Source: Allomyces arbusculus (taxonomy: Eukaryota; Blastocladiomycota; Blastocladiomycetes; Blastocladiales; Blastocladiaceae). Taken from it: a stretch of DNA of 64,000 bases. The stretch's first letter is position 1, and each line of letters opens with the position of its first letter. Of the stretch, positions 52,791 to 63,067 are shown piece by piece. The stretch is from positions 248,001 through 312,000 of the forward strand of contig JADHYV010000002.1 of the NCBI GenBank assembly GCA_027604705.1. Reading direction: 5' to 3'. A program made the translations under genes and the position numbers. The notes under the pieces were generated by a model. That model did no database searches. It saw only the letters and a program-made list of their open reading frames with translations, and was not told the origin of the DNA.

Positions 52791-53146
52791 AAGCGCGTCG
52801 TCGTCGATCGCCGCGACACTGATGCAGCGTGCAAACAAGGTGCGAGATGGGCGCGAGACGCGAGTCGGCGGTGTGTGTGCGGCACGCGACCGCGACAGGC
52901 ACGACAGAAAGTTCACGCCTGCCAGGGCGCCACCACCTCCACTCTCGCCAGCACGCGTGCTCCTCCACCGCCGCGACCACGACGATCCTGACTGCACCGC
53001 GAGCGCCTCGTTCCCGCCACTTGGCGCACCGCGCTAGATTCGACCACGAGAGCACTCGGACCACCGTTCCGTGTCGCCCCCACCTGCAAAGTTTTTCGCC
53101 CGCGAACGCACGCGCGCGCCCGTTTCGTTCCCTTTCACCAAATCCC
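52791..53146. other. Gap between CFAP58 and SUN gene
   Basis: This 356 bp gap lies between same-strand genes. The SUN frame stays open upstream to 52829, but that stretch is low-complexity and lacks conserved features. I read it as 5' UTR and promoter. Confidence 0.4.
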
Positions 53147-55453
53147 ATGAACGGCAGCGATCCTGCATCACGCCGTGCCCCGCTCGTGGCCATGTCTGGC
53201 AACCACAACGAGCCCGCTCAATCCGCGCCCGCTGCTGCCGTCCTGCCCGCGCTCGCCAAGCTCAAGAACTCGTCCAGACCGCCGTCCGGACCCAGCACGC
53301 CCCTGCGTGCCATGAAGTCGACGCTTGACCAGAATTTCGCAAGTCCGCGCTGGCACCAGCCAGGCGCGGGACCAAACCTGCACGACGATCGGCTTCCACG
53401 CCGCGCAGGCGCGCTCGACCTGTTCAGTATTCTCCACAAGCCGTCGCAACCCGTGCCGTCTTCCGCGGCCTCGTCGTCCTCGACTGCTGCTCCAGCTGCT
53501 GCACCTCCCGCACGCCCGCGACCCGTCCCTTCCTCTGCTGCTTCCCGCACCGATCTTGCGCCACCCGTCTCGGGGATCGGCATGCCGACGCGCGCCCCGC
53601 GTCGACGCCCGCCACGCGCCGAGCTGGCCCCCGAGGTCGCTGACGAGCCTCCTGCCGCACCCGCTGCTGACCAGCGCACGGGCCGGGCACCACGCTCGCA
53701 ATACCAGAATCTCTATCCGGATTTGTCGACGGAGCCCGCTGATCCGCACAACGGGTTCCAGCCCATCGAAGACGAGTACAAGGGCGGCGACGAGGACGGG
53801 GACGACGACGAATTTGTGCTCGTCGATGACACCGAGGCGTCCTTCCTCGACGACGAGTCCAGCGGTGGTCCCGCCATGGTCGACGCTGCCACGTCCTACT
53901 CGCTCCTAGCGACGCCCGCCGTGCGCGATTCCGGGCCGCTCCGGTTCCGGGCCGATATGACCATCAGCGACTCGGTTCTCGCGTCGCCGAGGTCCCCGTC
54001 GGCGTCTATCTCGTCGTCGTCGGGCCTGCTTGACCCGCCGCTCGCACCGACTTGGCAGGAACCTGCCGTTGCTCCACGTCGCTCGTCGCCCTACAACTTG
54101 AGATCACGAACGCAGACTCGAGGGCGCGCGGCCCCTGGGTTCGTGGCGCGCGCTGGTCAACTCATGGGCAATGTCGCGCTTTTGGCGTGGTTTATGATCG
54201 TCGACGGCGTCGTTTTCACGCACTCGTTGGCACGCAAGGCCGTCAAGCAGTCGATGGAGACGGCTCGCCAGCATGCTGGATGGATTACGCTGTTTGTCCT
54301 GCTCGCTGCCGTCATTGCCGCACTGCCCAAGTTTGACCCGTCCGCTTTCGAGGTTGACGAGACGGCCGAGCTGAGTCAGATCCTGGACCGCGTTGACGGA
54401 ATTTCTAACCAGGCGCAAAACCTGTCGGACCAAGTACATTCAGCCCTGGACGTAGCGGGTGCCTGGGCCGAGAAGCTCGTGGCCGATCCCGTGCCGGACC
54501 CGTCTACCGTCGAAATACCCGATGTGCGCCCCGTCGAGAACGACAACGATACCCCAATCCCCATGGAGCCTACGACAAGTCTCGAGTCGTTAGTGCGCGA
54601 GGCGATTGCCGCGCAGCTCGAGCGCACGCGCACGCGCATGGAGTCCCTGCTCGCCGATCACCAGACGGCGGTCGCGGCGTTGCAGGACCAGACCAAGTCG
54701 CTGATTGCGCACTTGGAGTCGCTGCCCACTCGCTCAGAGTCCGAGTCGCCTGCAACCGGCGATGCCGTGTCAGATTTGCCCGTTGTGGACCTGCCGCTCG
54801 TCGACTACGCCGCGGCCGTGTTTGGCGCGCGCGCCGTCGCCGAGGAATCATCAGCGACCTATCAGTTTCCATCATCGAGCGGATTCTTCGGATCGTGGTT
54901 CTCGACGTCTGGTTTCCCGCGGTCCGTTGCGCTGCACCCGAGTTTAGATGCGGGCCAGTGCTGGGCGACGCGTGCGCCCGCTCCCACTGCGGATTTTCCC
55001 GCCGTGCAGCCGCGCGTCCTCGACCTGGCTGACCTCGCCACTTCCCCGCGACTCACCGTGCACCTTGCGCGTCCCGTCCGTCCGGCGTCGATCGCCATCG
55101 CGCACTCGCTCGACGCATCGACGACCTCGGCGCCGCGCACGTTCCGCGTGTACGGCCGCGTCGTGGACCCAGCGACGCCCGCGGCAGATGCGCACGTTGT
55201 ACCGGGACCGCTTGCCCCGCCGCCCGCGGCTGACCGGCAGGGGCTGCGCGTGCTGCTGGCGAGTGGGACGTACAGTGTGGAGAAGGGGATGCCGGACGTG
55301 CAGGTGTTTACGGTCGATGGCGAGGTGCCGCTCGTGGACCGCGTCACGGTTGTCGTGGATTCGCACCATGGGCATGACAAGTACGTGTGCCTGTACCGCG
55401 TGAGCGTGCTCGCGGTGCCGCCGCACGCCGAGTCGGTGCCGGGGCGGGAGTAG
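53147..55453 (+). CDS. SUN-domain protein of the nuclear envelope
   Basis: A single-exon protein of 768 aa from ATG 53147. The C-terminal SUN domain (about residues 551-761) shows the family pattern: VDYAAAVFGARAV, then TYQF, GQCWATRAPAP, APRTFRVYGRV, and the end DSHHGHDKYVCLYRVSVLA. The roughly 330-residue N-terminus is Pro/Ser-rich and acidic, likely nucleoplasmic. Two hydrophobic helices lie at about 337-356 and 377-395 (WITLFVLLAAVIAALPKF), followed by a luminal coiled coil. SUN proteins pair with KASH proteins to form LINC bridges from nucleus to cytoskeleton. Fungal Sad1 tethers the spindle pole body, and in zoospores the same machinery could tie the nucleus to the basal body (inference). 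The frame extends upstream to 52829, but the 53147 start is preferred. It sits 357 bp after CFAP58. Confidence 0.87.
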   Translation: MNGSDPASRRAPLVAMSGNHNEPAQSAPAAAVLPALAKLKNSSRPPSGPSTPLRAMKSTLDQNFASPRWHQPGAGPNLHDDRLPRRAGALDLFSILHKPSQPVPSSAASSSSTAAPAAAPPARPRPVPSSAASRTDLAPPVSGIGMPTRAPRRRPPRAELAPEVADEPPAAPAADQRTGRAPRSQYQNLYPDLSTEPADPHNGFQPIEDEYKGGDEDGDDDEFVLVDDTEASFLDDESSGGPAMVDAATSYSLLATPAVRDSGPLRFRADMTISDSVLASPRSPSASISSSSGLLDPPLAPTWQEPAVAPRRSSPYNLRSRTQTRGRAAPGFVARAGQLMGNVALLAWFMIVDGVVFTHSLARKAVKQSMETARQHAGWITLFVLLAAVIAALPKFDPSAFEVDETAELSQILDRVDGISNQAQNLSDQVHSALDVAGAWAEKLVADPVPDPSTVEIPDVRPVENDNDTPIPMEPTTSLESLVREAIAAQLERTRTRMESLLADHQTAVAALQDQTKSLIAHLESLPTRSESESPATGDAVSDLPVVDLPLVDYAAAVFGARAVAEESSATYQFPSSSGFFGSWFSTSGFPRSVALHPSLDAGQCWATRAPAPTADFPAVQPRVLDLADLATSPRLTVHLARPVRPASIAIAHSLDASTTSAPRTFRVYGRVVDPATPAADAHVVPGPLAPPPAADRQGLRVLLASGTYSVEKGMPDVQVFTVDGEVPLVDRVTVVVDSHHGHDKYVCLYRVSVLAVPPHAESVPGRE

Positions 55454-56422: not shown

Positions 56423-59400
56423 ATGCCGTTAACCGCGCCGCCACCGTCGTCTCCGCTCGCCGCTCGCCCAGCTATCCGCATGTCGGCACCCGCGAGCAGC
56501 GACGGGTCCTCGATTGCGCTCTCGCCCATCGCCATCTCCCCCGCCACAAGTACCACCGACGTGCCTGCGGGCGACGACCACCATGACGACAACGACAACG
56601 ACAACGACAACGACGGCGACGTCCCGACACCCATGGCCGCGCCCGCGAGCCCGCGCGACCGCGCACCACCATTCAACACCGCGTCGACGATGAACCCGCG
56701 CGATCGCGGTGGGACCTCGACCGCGTCCACGACCACGTTCCCGCGCACGTTCGCCTTCTTCACGACCGAGCGCATGTCAATGGGGTCGCCCAAGTCGCTC
56801 GCGACCGCTCGCAGTCGCCCGACGACCAGCGGCGCGTCGCTGGACAATTCTGTTTACATGACGCCGACTCACAGTACTGCGCAGTTGGGGCACGCAAAGC
56901 GCACTGGCGATGCGACGCCGTTGGAGCAGACTGCCGCGGCTCAGGCGCAGTCGCCTGTCAGCACGCGCGGGTCGACGCAGTGGTGCTCGTTTGATGGGAC
57001 GGACGACTTGAAGATTGCACGACGTGCGGATGCGCACGCCAATTCGCTGCGAGGAGCCGGGCCAAGGGAGGACCGTTTTGCATCGGGAGGAGGATCAGCG
57101 GCAGCGTGCAATGCTCGACCATGCGTCGAGGCTGGTCCTGTCCCCGTCCACGACAACGACGAGGACGACGAGGACACGGACGCAGATGCATCGAGCACTG
57201 ACGGTGTCGCGCATATTGATGATGTGGCTCGGGACTCGCGCACGGCAAGCGTTCGAACCCCAGTCACATCGGCGCCACTGAGCCCAGCGCACCCCAAGGG
57301 TATCAACGTTTGATCGATTTGCAATTGTCGATGAACGCTGACTTTGCCCACCCTGAACTGTCGCGATTGTAGGAGGCGACGGCGTCGACAGCCACTCGAA
57401 GCTGCTCCCACGCGTGCCATCACCCGAGGCGCACCGATCCAAGATCAGCAGCCCGACGCGATGGTTTGTTGACCGTCTCCCGAAGGCCGACTCGACCTGG
57501 CGGCTCGTCTTGCACCGGAAGCGGAACCGCGTCAGTGCGTGGACGCTGCGTTTTGAAAAGCGGACTCTAGAGGCCAAGTTCAGGGACTACGTCAACAGGG
57601 TCATGCAAGGGCCGATGCGACTGCAAATGGCACTTCTCGATGCTTTTCAGTGATAGATGTCGTGAAAGAGCATCAAAATCTCATGTCCGCTGTTACATCT
57701 AGGTGTTTCTCCTCGTGATTGCCGTGCAGAAGCTGTACCTGACGTACCGGTCTAGCGAAACCTTGACGCACGTCAACAGAACGTGCCCGTCCTTTAACCT
57801 CATGTGTCCACAACTTGCACTCACTGGATTCTTTCCGCCGGCGATCCTCCTGGCCAGCGTGCTCGCTGCACTGATTCTATTGTCGCTCAACCGGCTGCGA
57901 TCCTACGACCGGCTCGTCGCAGTGCTCCTCGTGACCATCTACTCGTTTGTCGTGATCATTGACGTGGGCCGCGTCCTCTACTTTTTCCGTTGCGTGCACC
58001 AGAGCACGGGCTTCACGTCGTTTGGCCAGTACGGGGATGTGACGACGGCATGCGATTTTTGTCCTCGCGCAGTCTCGTGCACGAACCCGGCGTTTGTCGA
58101 AAGATTACCCAATATTGCCGGCGACGTGCAGATCATGGTGCAGCACTTTGCCTCGAGTCTTGGGATCGCGTTTTTTATGCTCGTATCCGGGTCAAATTTG
58201 CCGTTTGTGCAGGGCGAGGTGATTGGCCTCGTGTTCCTCGTCATTTTTCTAGCAACCAAATTCTTATTTGACGACGATTCGTCCGAAACGTGGTTCCTGT
58301 TCACGGCTGCGCTCGACAGTTTCTTAAAGGGTGCGTCGATGTCGCAGGTCGTCTTTTTGCTCGTGCTCACCTTTTCTTTGATGATAGGCTCGTGGTCAAC
58401 CTATCAGCGCGAAGTCATTTCGCGGCTCTCATTCCTACTCAACGTGCGCATCCAGCGCTCTGCCTTTTCGCGGCACAAGCGGTCGTGGACGCGCCGCAAG
58501 GCCTTGGTCCCGAGCATGGGCCGGCGCACGCTGCCCATCAACGTGCTTGGCATGGCCATCACCGAAGCGCGGGTGCGCGGCCTGCCTGACCTGCGCGTGA
58601 GCGTGACGGATTCCGTGCAGAACACGGTGCGCCGACTGAGTAGCATCGTCCCGTGGGCTCGCACCACGTCGGCCGCGACCAGCCGCGAAGGATGGTCGAG
58701 TGCCACATCGACCGACGGCGCCGGCGACCTGAGCCGGCTCCTCGCGCCACCGCCGGGCACTGGACGGTGGAGCGTGTTCCTGCAGTTGAATACACAGCGG
58801 CACGAGACGACCACGACGTTTTCGTGGTCGACAGCCAGTGCCGTCCTCCACCCGCCGCCGCGCATGCTGCACGTGCATTCCGAACTCGCGCTGCCGTCGG
58901 CACGCGCCGACCCGTCGTTTGATCTGGATGTCCCGAAGCCGCCGTCGAGAGCACGGTCCGATGAATGGGCACGGCCGCTGCAGCAGGTACTGAGGCCGGC
59001 GCGGTCTGTGCGCGAGAGTACAGCACTCGCGGCGGCGGCGAAGAGTACGGCAGTCACGCTGAGCAGAACGCCGAGCATGGAGCGCAGTGTTGGAAATCTC
59101 GCTGTTCCGATTGTGCAGGCGAGCAGGTGCGTCCTTTTGCACATAATGGACCCCGCCAATAGACCACAAATTAACGTGGACTGGTGGATCTTGCAGTGCG
59201 TCTGTTCCGAGCCTTGCCGAAGTGCCGGGGGTCGTGCTCGAACCACAAGAATGGGCACCCGGATTACCACCGATCCCGAGCGCGCCCGTGTCGGACGAGA
59301 CCAAGTCGAACGTGTCGGCCCCTTCGGTGACCTCCCCGATCTCATGGCATGTTAACGAGGGCCGCAAGCCACCACCCGATGCCGACGTACCGCCGCGCGT

Positions 59401-60933
59401 GTTCCCGACGTTGCACGCGTCGAGCCCCTCGATGACCATGGAGCGACCCACCCGGGACGGCTTTTTGGACCCGCTCATGGCGACACTGCGGTCCGTCAAG
59501 AACGGCGGGGTCATGTCGGTCAAGCAGAGCAGCGTGTCTGTGGATGTGAGTAGCGTGCTCTTGTCGAATGTGGACATTGGGATGCTATTGACGTGTACGA
59601 CGGCCGCTACAATTGTGTCTCTGTGATAATGAAGTGGTAGCGGATTCAACTGACATACAAACCCCGCTCGAATGTAGTGCCAAGGGCCAAGTCGCTCGCG
59701 AGCGACAGCAGTCAAAACTCGGCGCTCGCTCCACCGCCCATTTCCATGGCACTCATGACAGCGCCGCAGTCGCTCCACCCGACGATGTCCCCGGACGCGC
59801 AGAGCGAGACGAGTGTCGACCATGACGTGAGAACGAACCTTTCCTTGCACCCGCGGCTTGCTGCACCCGGTTTCGACTCGACCGGTCCGCGGCCGTGGCC
59901 GCACCAGGGCGGCTTGCTCGGTGCGAGCGGCCCGTTTCCCACGAACCCCTCTACCGTAAAATCGCGCGCCGGCGATTCGAGTTCCCCGGCATCGTCGACG
60001 GCCGTGGCACACTCGTTTGTGACGCGTCCGATTACGAGCCAGTCGGGCCACCTCAAGCCATCAACGACCCCGTCGTCGGCGCGCGCGCTGTCCCCATCAC
60101 CAACACGGTCTAGGCCAGAGGCCACGGCGCCGAGGCCAGGGAAGCACGTGCGATCGTGGCCAATGCGATTTCGGCGCGCCTGGCGCCGCGTGCAGCATTT
60201 TTTCGTCTACACGTTCCCATCGCCCGAGCAGGAGGCCGTCTACCGAAGCTACTACCACCGCAAGTTGCGCGACCGGTTCATTATCACGAACTTGACTGTG
60301 ACCGTCGCGTGGTGTCTGGTCGCGGGCATAGGCCTGTTGACCAAGGCGGGGACCGCGATGGGGAGCGACCCGTACGGGATCTCATCGTTCTGGTACCGGC
60401 AACTCCCGGGGTTTGTGGCTGTCGTGCTGCCCGTCGTGGCGCTGCACGGATTCCACTTGGAGGGAGCGACGCTCGAGGTGTTTGCGACGATCTACGTGTC
60501 GACGGTGATCACGGTCGCGATTGCCATGGACGCGGCGGCACGGTACCTGACCAACAACCCGCTCGTGCAGATGTTTCTCTTCATGAGCTACCTCTCGGCG
60601 ATCATGTCCGCGACCACGCTCCGACTGCGCCCAAGGATTCACTTGTCGGTGATCGCCATGGCCACGGTCATTGACGCGCTGCGGTGGGCCATTCTTGCGG
60701 CGCTCGGGCGAGCGGGGACGGCGATTGCGGTCGTGGGCGTGTCGTGTGCGGCGATGGTGCTGTCAATCACGCTGACCTTGTTCAACGAGTCGGCGCAAAG
60801 GCGGTATTTTTACCTGCGCCGGCTCGTGGAACTCGATGCGCCCGTACGCGGCGGTGGGGGAGGGGGAGGACATAGTGGGAGGGGGAAGGACGAGGCGGGT
60901 AGAGCGCCCGTGGCGGCAAAGACTCCGGACTAG
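56423..60933 (+). CDS. Double six-helix membrane protein resembling adenylyl cyclase anchors, no cyclase domain
   Basis: Exons 56423-57299, 57373-57599, 57703-59126, 59197-59594 and 59678-60933 give about 1,393 aa. An upstream in-frame ATG at 56198 would add 75, and the exon 2/3 joint is the least certain. The N-terminal 330 residues are Ser/Thr/Asp-rich. Block 1 (about 57510-58460) has an amphipathic lead RFEKRTLEAKFRDYVNR, about six helices, then YQREVISRLSFLLNVRI. Block 2 (about 60190-60840) has FPSPEQEAVYRSYYHRKLRDR, six helices, then ESAQRRYFYLRRLVEL. The lead (F-S-x-x-LE-x-LYQRYF) and exit (E-x-x-QRxxF) patterns resemble mammalian adenylyl cyclase membrane domains. Neither block is followed by a cyclase domain. 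The 58460-60180 linker is Ser/Thr/Pro-rich, and the protein ends in a Gly/Lys tail. It could instead be two adjacent genes (break near 59626-59678). Function is unknown. Confidence 0.6.
56586..56614 (+). repeat. GACAAC microsatellite (Asp-Asn codons)
   Basis: About four near-perfect GACAAC hexamers encode an (Asp-Asn)n tract inside the disordered N-terminus of the double six-helix protein. They are likely length-variable. Confidence 0.85.
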
Positions 60934-61150
60934 TTATTGTTCATTTTTCCGTAGGACTTGCGAGTGGAGAAGGTAAATGAATGTACGAGGAGCGGTTTCG
61001 GTCGCTGTAGGATTCGAACCGTCGGGTCTGTAACATATTGGAGATCAGAGACGGGTCAGTCGACGCCTGGTCGCCGACGCGCGGTCGAGGAAGTTGTCCT
61101 GCACGATGAAAATTTATGACCTCTTCGAACAACTTAGACCACATTAACAT

Positions 61151-62641
61151 TTATCCGGACTGGGTCGCAGCGTAGCTCTGCACAACGCGATCCAAGGCAA
61201 CAGCCAACGGCCGCGTCGGGAACGGCAACTGCGTGATCCGGGCACGAACGGCTTGCAGGAGCTCGACCGTCGTCTCTTCAAGGAGCGCCACCGTCTCCGT
61301 CTGGACCACGCGGCGCGCTGCGCCCAGCAGGTACTCGAGCATTTCGACCGACTCGAGAAGCAAATCTATCACGACGGTCGCGTCATGCTGGAACACATGC
61401 GTCGCGGCCGCATTGAGCAAGCGCGCAGCTGGTGCCAGCAACAATTGCGTGACGCAGATATCGTCTGCCACGGCCGTCGCGGGCGCGAGCTGCATGTGCA
61501 GTTGGAGAATGCGCACGACGTACTTGTCGTTGATGCAAGCGACGCGCAGCGCCGCGACGAAGTCGATGGTGGAGAGTGCTGCTCGCAAGGGAGCAGACGT
61601 GGCAGCACCGTGCACGGTCGATGCGTGCAAGAACTCGAGGTGGTAGAGCAGCGTCGTCGCGTGCAGATCAAGGTCGTCGCGCACCGACCGCTGGACCAGG
61701 TCGCATGGCGTCGTGCCAGCGTCGAGCAGTTTTTGCGCGTGATCGAGCAGCCGCGGCCACACGGCTGGCGTCAGAGTCGGGACTAGCGGCGCAGAGAGCA
61801 GCGTAGTGACCGATGCCACCGCACGGGCGGGGTCGGCAGCGAGCACCGCGCGCTGGAGCCGAACGGTCCGGCGCGCCGACGCGGCATGGCACTGATGCGA
61901 TCCGTGCTCGACCTGAAAGTAACATAAATACAGCATTAATGAGGCAATTGGTTCGGTCGCAATCGAAAACACGCAACGCACCAGCAATGGCATCGAATCA
62001 ATCAGGACTGGCAGGAACTGAACCGCCAGCACCGCATCCCGCGTCGCGAGCTTGACTGCATCGATCAAGATATCGATGAATGCGGTCCACGCCGCCACAG
62101 CCAACTGTGAGAGCTCAAGTGGGGGCCAGGCTCGCGCAGCTGTCCACGGCGAGCAGGTGTCGCGCAACAGGATCAATCCCTGCACCGTCTGTCCGAGGAG
62201 CCATGGGAACGCATCCACCGCCCATGTCGCGAGCCGATGAGAGGCTTCGATGGCGGCGGCGTTGTTGCACTCGCCGTGAGCATCGCCGCACTGGTGGGCC
62301 CATCCTCGTCGCTCCAATTGGAAAATGCGATGCACGGCACGTAGAGCACGCGTCTGAGCAACAGTTTCGGCTTGCCCGTTTCCAACGACGGTGACATGAT
62401 GGTTGAGAGGCAAACTTGAGTTCGCGCGCTGCAGTTCGCCAAAGCAGTGCTGCAACAGACCCGTCAAGGCGGCCAATGCTTGCTCGGGATTAGCTGACCA
62501 GTCACTCGCGAGTTGTTCTTGCACCGTAAACGCCGACCAAGCAGCAAGCGGTGTGACAAGTTGCTGGTCGGCATCAGCGATATCGACTTGATACAGGGCG
62601 GGCGGTGTTGGCGCTCCGTAAGCTGGCCAGTGAATGGACAT
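61151..62641 (-). CDS. Unrecognised alpha-helical repeat protein
   Basis: An uninterrupted 496-residue frame with ATG at 62641 and GC-rich coding codon use. I do not recognise it. It is Ala/Leu-rich throughout, with helix pairs of 35-45 residues (for example LQLHMQLAPATAVADDICV and VIDLLLESVEMLEYLLGAA), suggesting an armadillo- or HEAT-type solenoid. A His/Cys-containing loop (AHQCGDAHGECNN) lies near residue 117, too irregular for a known zinc finger. One more hydrophobic stretch near residue 230 (PLLVRCVFSIATEPIASLMLY) could be buried helix or membrane. It converges on the preceding gene with 217 bp between stops. Confidence 0.6.
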   Translation of the reverse strand: MSIHWPAYGAPTPPALYQVDIADADQQLVTPLAAWSAFTVQEQLASDWSANPEQALAALTGLLQHCFGELQRANSSLPLNHHVTVVGNGQAETVAQTRALRAVHRIFQLERRGWAHQCGDAHGECNNAAAIEASHRLATWAVDAFPWLLGQTVQGLILLRDTCSPWTAARAWPPLELSQLAVAAWTAFIDILIDAVKLATRDAVLAVQFLPVLIDSMPLLVRCVFSIATEPIASLMLYLCYFQVEHGSHQCHAASARRTVRLQRAVLAADPARAVASVTTLLSAPLVPTLTPAVWPRLLDHAQKLLDAGTTPCDLVQRSVRDDLDLHATTLLYHLEFLHASTVHGAATSAPLRAALSTIDFVAALRVACINDKYVVRILQLHMQLAPATAVADDICVTQLLLAPAARLLNAAATHVFQHDATVVIDLLLESVEMLEYLLGAARRVVQTETVALLEETTVELLQAVRARITQLPFPTRPLAVALDRVVQSYAATQSG

Positions 62642-63067
62642 GCCAGAGTCGATGATGTTGTCGTGGTTTGCGCTGATCCTGGCAACTTATTAATATTGGG
62701 CAGTCGGATGAATTGCATGCACTTCGGGCAACAGCGCTTGGACAATGAGTGGAGGTTGCTGATCGCCATTCTCGATCGTTGGGCATGATGTTACGAAGGT
62801 ATTGCCAGCATGCAATCTTTGAGATCATATTCTCAACAGTTCTTCGCGCGGGCGGTGCCTAACACCACTGCTGCCACGCTTTGCTCATATTTCATTCCAA
62901 TTCCATACTTTCCCGTGCGTGCTCGCTTTCGGGCAATAACATTGGGATCTTTGACGGAAGAGCAAGCACGGGAGTGGAGCGATTTCTATAGGTAACTTAC
63001 CGTTGGGTAACACATCTGTAGGCATGACAGTTTCATTATTAAAAACACGAAAGCAACACCTACTCTT
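62642..63067. other. Intergenic region between two minus-strand genes
   Basis: This 426 bp is more AT-rich than its surroundings (for example 62860-63060). It holds no supported ORF. It is the expected promoter of the 61151-62641 gene and 3' end of the next gene. Confidence 0.4.

Follow-up and report, generated by a model that had tools for sequence, protein, structure and literature searches.

The window analyzed here is a 64,000-nucleotide stretch of the genome of Allomyces arbusculus, an aquatic fungus of the Blastocladiomycota, and is part of a contig of 980,400 bases (C2) in the 25.9 Mb that were searched. Toward its end it encodes a protein with two membrane blocks that, judged from sequence, is probably kin to the membrane anchors of eukaryotic 12-transmembrane (12-TM) adenylyl cyclases and is without a cyclase domain. 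The predicted order is a low-complexity N-terminus, block 1, a 524-residue linker at the place where C1 would be, block 2, and a short tail at the place of C2, and mammalian AC5, AC8, and AC9 have the same block-linker-block order.

The gene is real and is conserved across two species. It is deposited as the hypothetical protein GGF31_002905 of A. arbusculus (1369 residues), to which a block 2 query gives full identity, and its A. javanicus counterpart, compared here as protein, is GGF32_001341, 94% identical over block 2. These are 2 of the 2261 candidates (E ≤ 1) in the protein search with block 2. The original prediction, made from the letters of the window, had read the region as a single gene and its source as a zoosporic fungus; both readings fit, and one plus-strand coding sequence at about 56423-60936 agrees with the deposited protein.

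Entry and exit segments

The motifs that had been picked out by eye on either side of the blocks are literally there, KFRDY and EVISRLSF as entry and exit of block 1, VYRSY and ESAQRRYF as entry and exit of block 2. Their likeness to cyclase anchors was scored with 2 matrices, an entry position-specific scoring matrix (PSSM) built from the two AC5 entry segments alone and an exit matrix built from AC5, AC8, and AC9, with no Allomyces letter in the training of either. The positive control is the fungus's own complete 12-TM adenylyl cyclase, of the animal-type order 6TM-C1-6TM-C2 (locus L016, G000:C45:22501-32500, minus strand). A query of its first membrane domain, TM1, plus the beginning of C1 aligns with AC5 nearly full length and with AC8 and AC9 in its second half; the six PDB sequences concerned have E = 2.3e-8 to 0.008. 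Genome searches with the membrane domains of this cyclase gave no clear second copy, the one weak match being on contig C55 (E = 0.10).

The entry matrix was run over 192,057 positions in 1738 six-frame open reading frames (ORFs) of the window and other loci. The nine top scores are 23.0, 21.0 (three times), 16.5, 15.5, 15.0 (twice), and 14.5, with the tenth at 13.0, and they belong to block 2, TM2 of the own cyclase, block 1, block 1 of a paralogue described below, TM1 of the own cyclase, and block 2 of the paralogue, where scores were used to make the assignment and the own cyclase occurs as repeated copies. Permuted columns reach the block 1 score in 14 of 5000 trials and shuffled sequence in 10 of 5000; the block 2 score is reached in 1 and 0 of 5000 controls. 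The permuted-column counts per 5000 are 6 and 26 for the paralogue and 14 and 1 for the own cyclase. The exit matrix is weaker than the entry matrix, yet its best position follows directly on the last helix in 6 of 6 blocks. At block 1 the exit score of 10.2 is reached at 3 of 202,485 positions, itself counted, and in 12 and 19 of 5000 controls. For the first and second blocks of the paralogue the counts per 5000 are 52 and 262, and for TM1 and TM2 of the own cyclase 31 and 500.

A joint score, the sum of an entry and an exit found 140-300 residues apart and trained on AC5, AC8, and AC9, gives 26.7 and 25.6 for the window blocks, 28.7 and 25.6 for A. javanicus, 22.5 and 20.5 for the paralogue, and 23.2 and 24.6 for the own 12-TM cyclase. 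Among 438 ORFs, 111 of them from E. coli and 327 from the fungus itself (with block 2 and its cyclase in their number), the top unrelated score is 15.3 and belongs to E. coli. For each of the four orphan blocks, those of the window gene and of the paralogue, shuffles reach the joint score 0 times in 2000, and the result is the same with hydrophobic and polar positions shuffled separately; the TM2 score of the own cyclase is reached by 1 of 2000. Nine bacterial cyclases with at least five hydrophobic segments upstream score from -3.0 to 6.6, so the signature looks specific to eukaryotic 12-TM cyclases and not general to cyclase anchors. Cyclase-type entry and exit segments, our working signature, are thus seen on both blocks, weakly for the block 2 exit alone, and the resemblance first noted by eye holds when the training uses nothing but mammalian cyclases. 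The entry (to AC5) and the exit (to AC5, AC8, and AC9) align in register, and both segments are common to the two blocks of the own cyclase and the two blocks of the window protein.

Absence of a cyclase domain

The catalytic-domain family PF00211 has no match up to E = 1 in the deposited protein of either species. In the genome search, none of the 24 listed PF00211 matches, a lower bound that by our grouping falls in ten places, lies on C2 or on C19, the contig of the paralogue. The class III domains C1 and C2 of a eukaryotic 12-TM adenylyl cyclase, which the mammalian enzymes and the own cyclase have, were both not found in the window protein, in agreement with the earlier statement that linker and tail are without catalytic motifs. 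The protein is therefore not expected to be a cyclase. Pfam and NCBIfam scans found no domain in the linker.

The coil of the helical domain after helices 6 and 12 is reported to be about 40 residues long (PMC12414865). Counted from the exit Glu up to the nearest Pro or Gly that follows, this stretch has 18 residues after block 2, 33 after block 1, and 36 after TM1 of the own cyclase. The block 2 stretch is therefore too short for the coil that couples membrane and enzyme, a further difference from the mammalian cyclases; the one after block 1 comes near the length in the own cyclase, which would allow a single helix there.

Helix count and gene model

Block 2 has the six hydrophobic segments that were claimed for both blocks. 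That count is not confirmed for block 1, where five segments are firm and one is marginal, and the strong last helix, QVVFLLVLTFSLMI, is very probably translated intron. Toward the end of block 1, 19 residues of open frame, with QVVFLLVLTFSLMI among them, are absent from the deposited proteins of both species. The paralogue is interrupted by an intron at the matching position, give or take one nucleotide, and just before it has a 42-nt exon, YWLIMMQAADHLIR, that aligns gapless with ETWFLFTAALDSFLK, and after either of these the exit segment reads YQRE[VL]ISRL[ST]F in window and paralogue alike (paralogue splice sites were placed by hand). With 58331-58387 spliced out, 54 residues separate the exit Glu of block 1 from its helix-4/5 loop, and with it retained 73; the values are 58 for block 2, 53 for TM1 of the own cyclase, and 60 for AC5 and AC8, so that the spacing is similar to that of the mammalian enzymes. 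Pointing to coding are the open frame, the length of 3 × 19, and a third-position GC bias (p = 0.010), a similar imbalance being present in 2 of the 4 stretches tested as introns, one boundary of the four since revised. We consider it very probable from these comparisons that 58331-58387 is an intron, which leaves ETWFLFTAALDSFLK as the proposed sixth segment of block 1, a marginal one unlike those of the mammalian cyclases: it does not reach 0.9 when hydropathy is scanned over 17 residues and is modeled as a helix in a low-confidence stretch. The helix count of block 1 in the original prediction was thus probably read in part from an intron. The same 57 nt, in frame and reading as a strong membrane helix if retained, are a candidate exitron.

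The final model has 1384 residues against 1369 in the deposited one. Two junctions differ, chiefly that of the putative GC-AG intron 57630-57702, which the deposited A. arbusculus model skips, so that it is without ten residues of block 1. Using this intron preserves the frame and gives back the residues MQGPMRLQMV, which the A. javanicus protein also has and with which the junction MRLQM|VFLL agrees; the paralogue has a GT-AG intron at the matching position. Coordinates are collected in Table 1.

A separate observation concerns the presumed outer loops of block 1 (57760-58120). Six cysteines there (TCPSFN..CP, FRC, CDFC, SC) are kept in A. javanicus and mostly missing from the paralogue.

Table 1. 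Features of the two-block gene, in window coordinates
Feature	Position	Strand	Remarks
Whole coding gene	56423..60936	+	predicted spliced model, 1384 aa, six exons, five introns, no internal stops
N-terminal low-complexity region, Asp-/Ser-rich	56423..57491	+	from sequence; least conserved part against A. javanicus
Intron 1	57300-57372	+	inside N-terminal region
Membrane block 1 (residues 333-610)	57492..58455	+	hydropathy and conservation
Block 1 entry segment RFEKRTLEAKFRDYVNRV	57549..57602	+	AC5-trained score 16.5
Intron 2, putative GC donor (GC-AG)	57630..57702	+	inside helix 1 of block 1
Proposed true sixth segment of block 1, ETWFLFTAALDSFLK	58285..58329	+	weakly hydrophobic; gapless match to paralogue exon YWLIMMQAADHLIR
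Probable intron, 57 nt	58331..58387	+	reads as strong helix QVVFLLVLTFSLMI if translated
Block 1 exit segment YQREVISRLSFLLNVRIQ	58402..58455	+	AC-trained exit score 10.2
Ser/Pro-rich linker, 524 residues	58456..60180	+	from sequence
Intron 4	59127-59196	+	inside linker
Intron 5	59595-59677	+	inside linker
Membrane block 2 (residues 1135-1353), single exon	60181..60837	+	six hydrophobic segments by hydropathy
Block 2 entry segment TFPSPEQEAVYRSYYHRK, like AC5 KFPSDKLERLYQRYFFR	60211..60264	+	score 23.0, top of 192,057 positions
Block 2 exit segment NESAQRRYFYLRRL	60784..60825	+	block's best exit position, directly after helix 6
Short Gly-rich tail	60838..60933	+	from sequence; no cyclase domain

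Paralogue and conservation

Searching the genome with the blocks finds, besides the gene itself, only contig C19, where each block matches two stretches in the same order. Block 2 matches at E = 9.8e-23 and 1.6e-8 (identity 39 and 42%), block 1 weakly at E = 0.007 and 0.06, and hhalign pairs the window blocks with the paralogue blocks at probabilities of 99.2 and 99.9%. The genome thus holds one diverged paralogue (locus L015) that keeps both blocks in their order. The window linker has no believable match in the paralogue DNA (best tblastn E = 0.92). The tail of the paralogue past block 2 (L015 5640-6559) is much longer, Ser-rich, and about 300 residues in open frame, with no cyclase match on C19.

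Protein identity of A. arbusculus with A. javanicus is 87.4% over block 1 (278 residues) and 94.1% over block 2 (219 residues), 76.6% over the N-terminus (256 aligned of 332 residues), 81.2% over the linker, and 83.3% over the short tail, which makes the membrane parts the best conserved portion. Protein searches gave no homologue outside Allomyces among the matches listed, in searches that also failed to list known relatives such as the paralogue.

Weighing of alternatives

Several results count against kinship with cyclase anchors. Profiles of the blocks do not pair significantly with those of the own cyclase anchors, nor does block 1 with block 2 (probability below 1%), PDB sequence searches gave no match to a cyclase, and Pfam AC_N (PF16214) is unmatched in both deposited proteins, as it is, below cut-off, in the own true cyclase (19.3 vs 30.9 bits). 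The structure models are too poor to decide on a membrane fold of AC9 or Cya type, or resemble other folds (predicted local distance difference test, pLDDT, 46 for block 2 and 64.8 for block 1), with no confident match. In block 1, moreover, the sixth helix is marginal, and six cysteines lie on what is presumed to be its outer side. As to the flanks, the PSSM segments were picked after the finding was known and two only trained the entry matrix, the AC5 TM2 entry register rests on a 1.2-bit alignment, the block 2 exit does not stand out by its own score (reached by 781 and 742 of 5000 controls), and a bacterial stretch without hydrophobic segments reached a joint score of 20.5, level with the weakest paralogue block. 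That stretch is a coiled coil by eye, and three further bacterial stretches exceed 15 (490 ORFs, 80 bacterial cyclase loci). Concerning the alignments, cyclase membrane domains are described as diverged past sequence recognition (PMC9552081), and TM1 of the own cyclase compared with its own TM2 is equally poor (0.2%). Since these two do not find each other, a failed alignment says little, and for this reason the flanks were tested instead.

The likeness might also arise without kinship. The block 1 model is similar to four-helix proteins, at a level usual for common bundles, and block 1 might be a tetraspan-like bundle of claudin or connexin type whose outer loop is rich in Cys and which is joined to an unrelated block of six helices; the flanks would then be membrane-proximal helices that resemble those of cyclases by convergence. 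We think this unlikely; a four-helix bundle as the entire membrane domain is not what is seen, with at least 5 hydrophobic segments in block 1 and six in block 2. A two-block transporter or channel of an uncharacterized family, its cyclase likeness reflecting the common grammar of membrane proteins, is similarly improbable. Neither block was assigned to any family in the searches, and cyclase anchors were themselves, by report, first proposed as channels or transporters (PMC9552081), but shuffles that keep the hydrophobic pattern never attain the joint score of any of the four blocks. Moreover, among the 15 best listed bacterial ORFs, the sole one with four hydrophobic segments, and the best listed with at least four, scored 7.9, whereas the same count gives four or five segments for all of the blocks. 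That the gene is a decaying adenylyl cyclase duplicate without function, as the marginal sixth helix of block 1 and the GC donor of intron 2 might suggest, is very improbable: the frame is open and spliceable in both window and paralogue, the second species has a deposited protein, and the membrane blocks are the parts best conserved.

Other cyclase genes and neighbors

Elsewhere in the genome, L022 and L023 (G000:C7 and C15) have microbial-rhodopsin-like regions followed by cyclase domains and by eye are likely rhodopsin guanylyl cyclases. L018 and L021 (G000:C102 and C9) are cyclase genes with PAS-like regions upstream, L021 also with long coiled-coil regions upstream of the cyclase, again by eye. 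Upstream of the two-block gene, the plus-strand neighbor at 52823-55453 encodes a SUN-domain protein (Sad1_UNC, E = 1.9e-10); downstream, the next long ORF is on the minus strand at 61151-62686.

Proposed role

If the protein is cyclase kin, its most likely origin would be a duplicated 12-TM cyclase that lost both catalytic units before the two Allomyces paralogues split. What remained would be a paired membrane bundle with at most half the coil. The role of the large adenylyl cyclase membrane domains is debated, with anchors, assembly rails, and lipid receptors all proposed in the papers cited (PMC12414865, PMC9433096, PMC11606603). They have been reported as lipid receptors (PMC11606603, PMC12505454), and on that account the likeliest use of the bundle would be binding a ligand or another membrane protein. 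The six-helix anchor of mycobacterial Cya/Rv1625c, which differs in carrying a cyclase, is reported as a lipid-sensing domain (PMC12505454); the signature was scored on other bacterial cyclases than Rv1625c. The bundle would bind a lipid or other ligand, or pair with the membrane part of the one true 12-TM cyclase found, that on C45, and the long low-complexity cytosolic parts would serve as docking sites.

Natriuretic peptide receptor C (NPR-C) is a single-helix peptide receptor. It is described as a cyclase-family receptor without a cyclase domain that acts as a clearance receptor for peptide (PMC8326739), and its likeness to the window protein is one of working principle, not of kinship. 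By this analogy the protein would serve as decoy, sink, or partner, as NPR-C does for the peptide-receptor guanylyl cyclases. Such a function, for a receptor-like ligand-binding bundle or cyclase partner, is a tentative suggestion. Doubtful too, if conceivable, is a two-member Allomyces family of cyclase-less adenylyl cyclase receptors that still sense a ligand, in which retention of the 57-nt intron might switch the topology of block 1. In the titles and opening lines of abstracts of open-licence literature on Allomyces and Blastocladiomycota cyclases, cyclases without catalytic domains, and zoospore cyclases, no such protein is described.

The proteins of the paired genes appear to resemble the membrane half of animal-type adenylyl cyclases and may act as receptors or regulators without producing cyclic AMP themselves. 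If so, they would be a case in nature of cyclase membrane domains functioning beyond anchoring. A gene family in which these domains outlived the enzyme would amount to an experiment of nature in favor of a separate function for them, and it would offer binding and structural studies a membrane construct free of catalytic domains.

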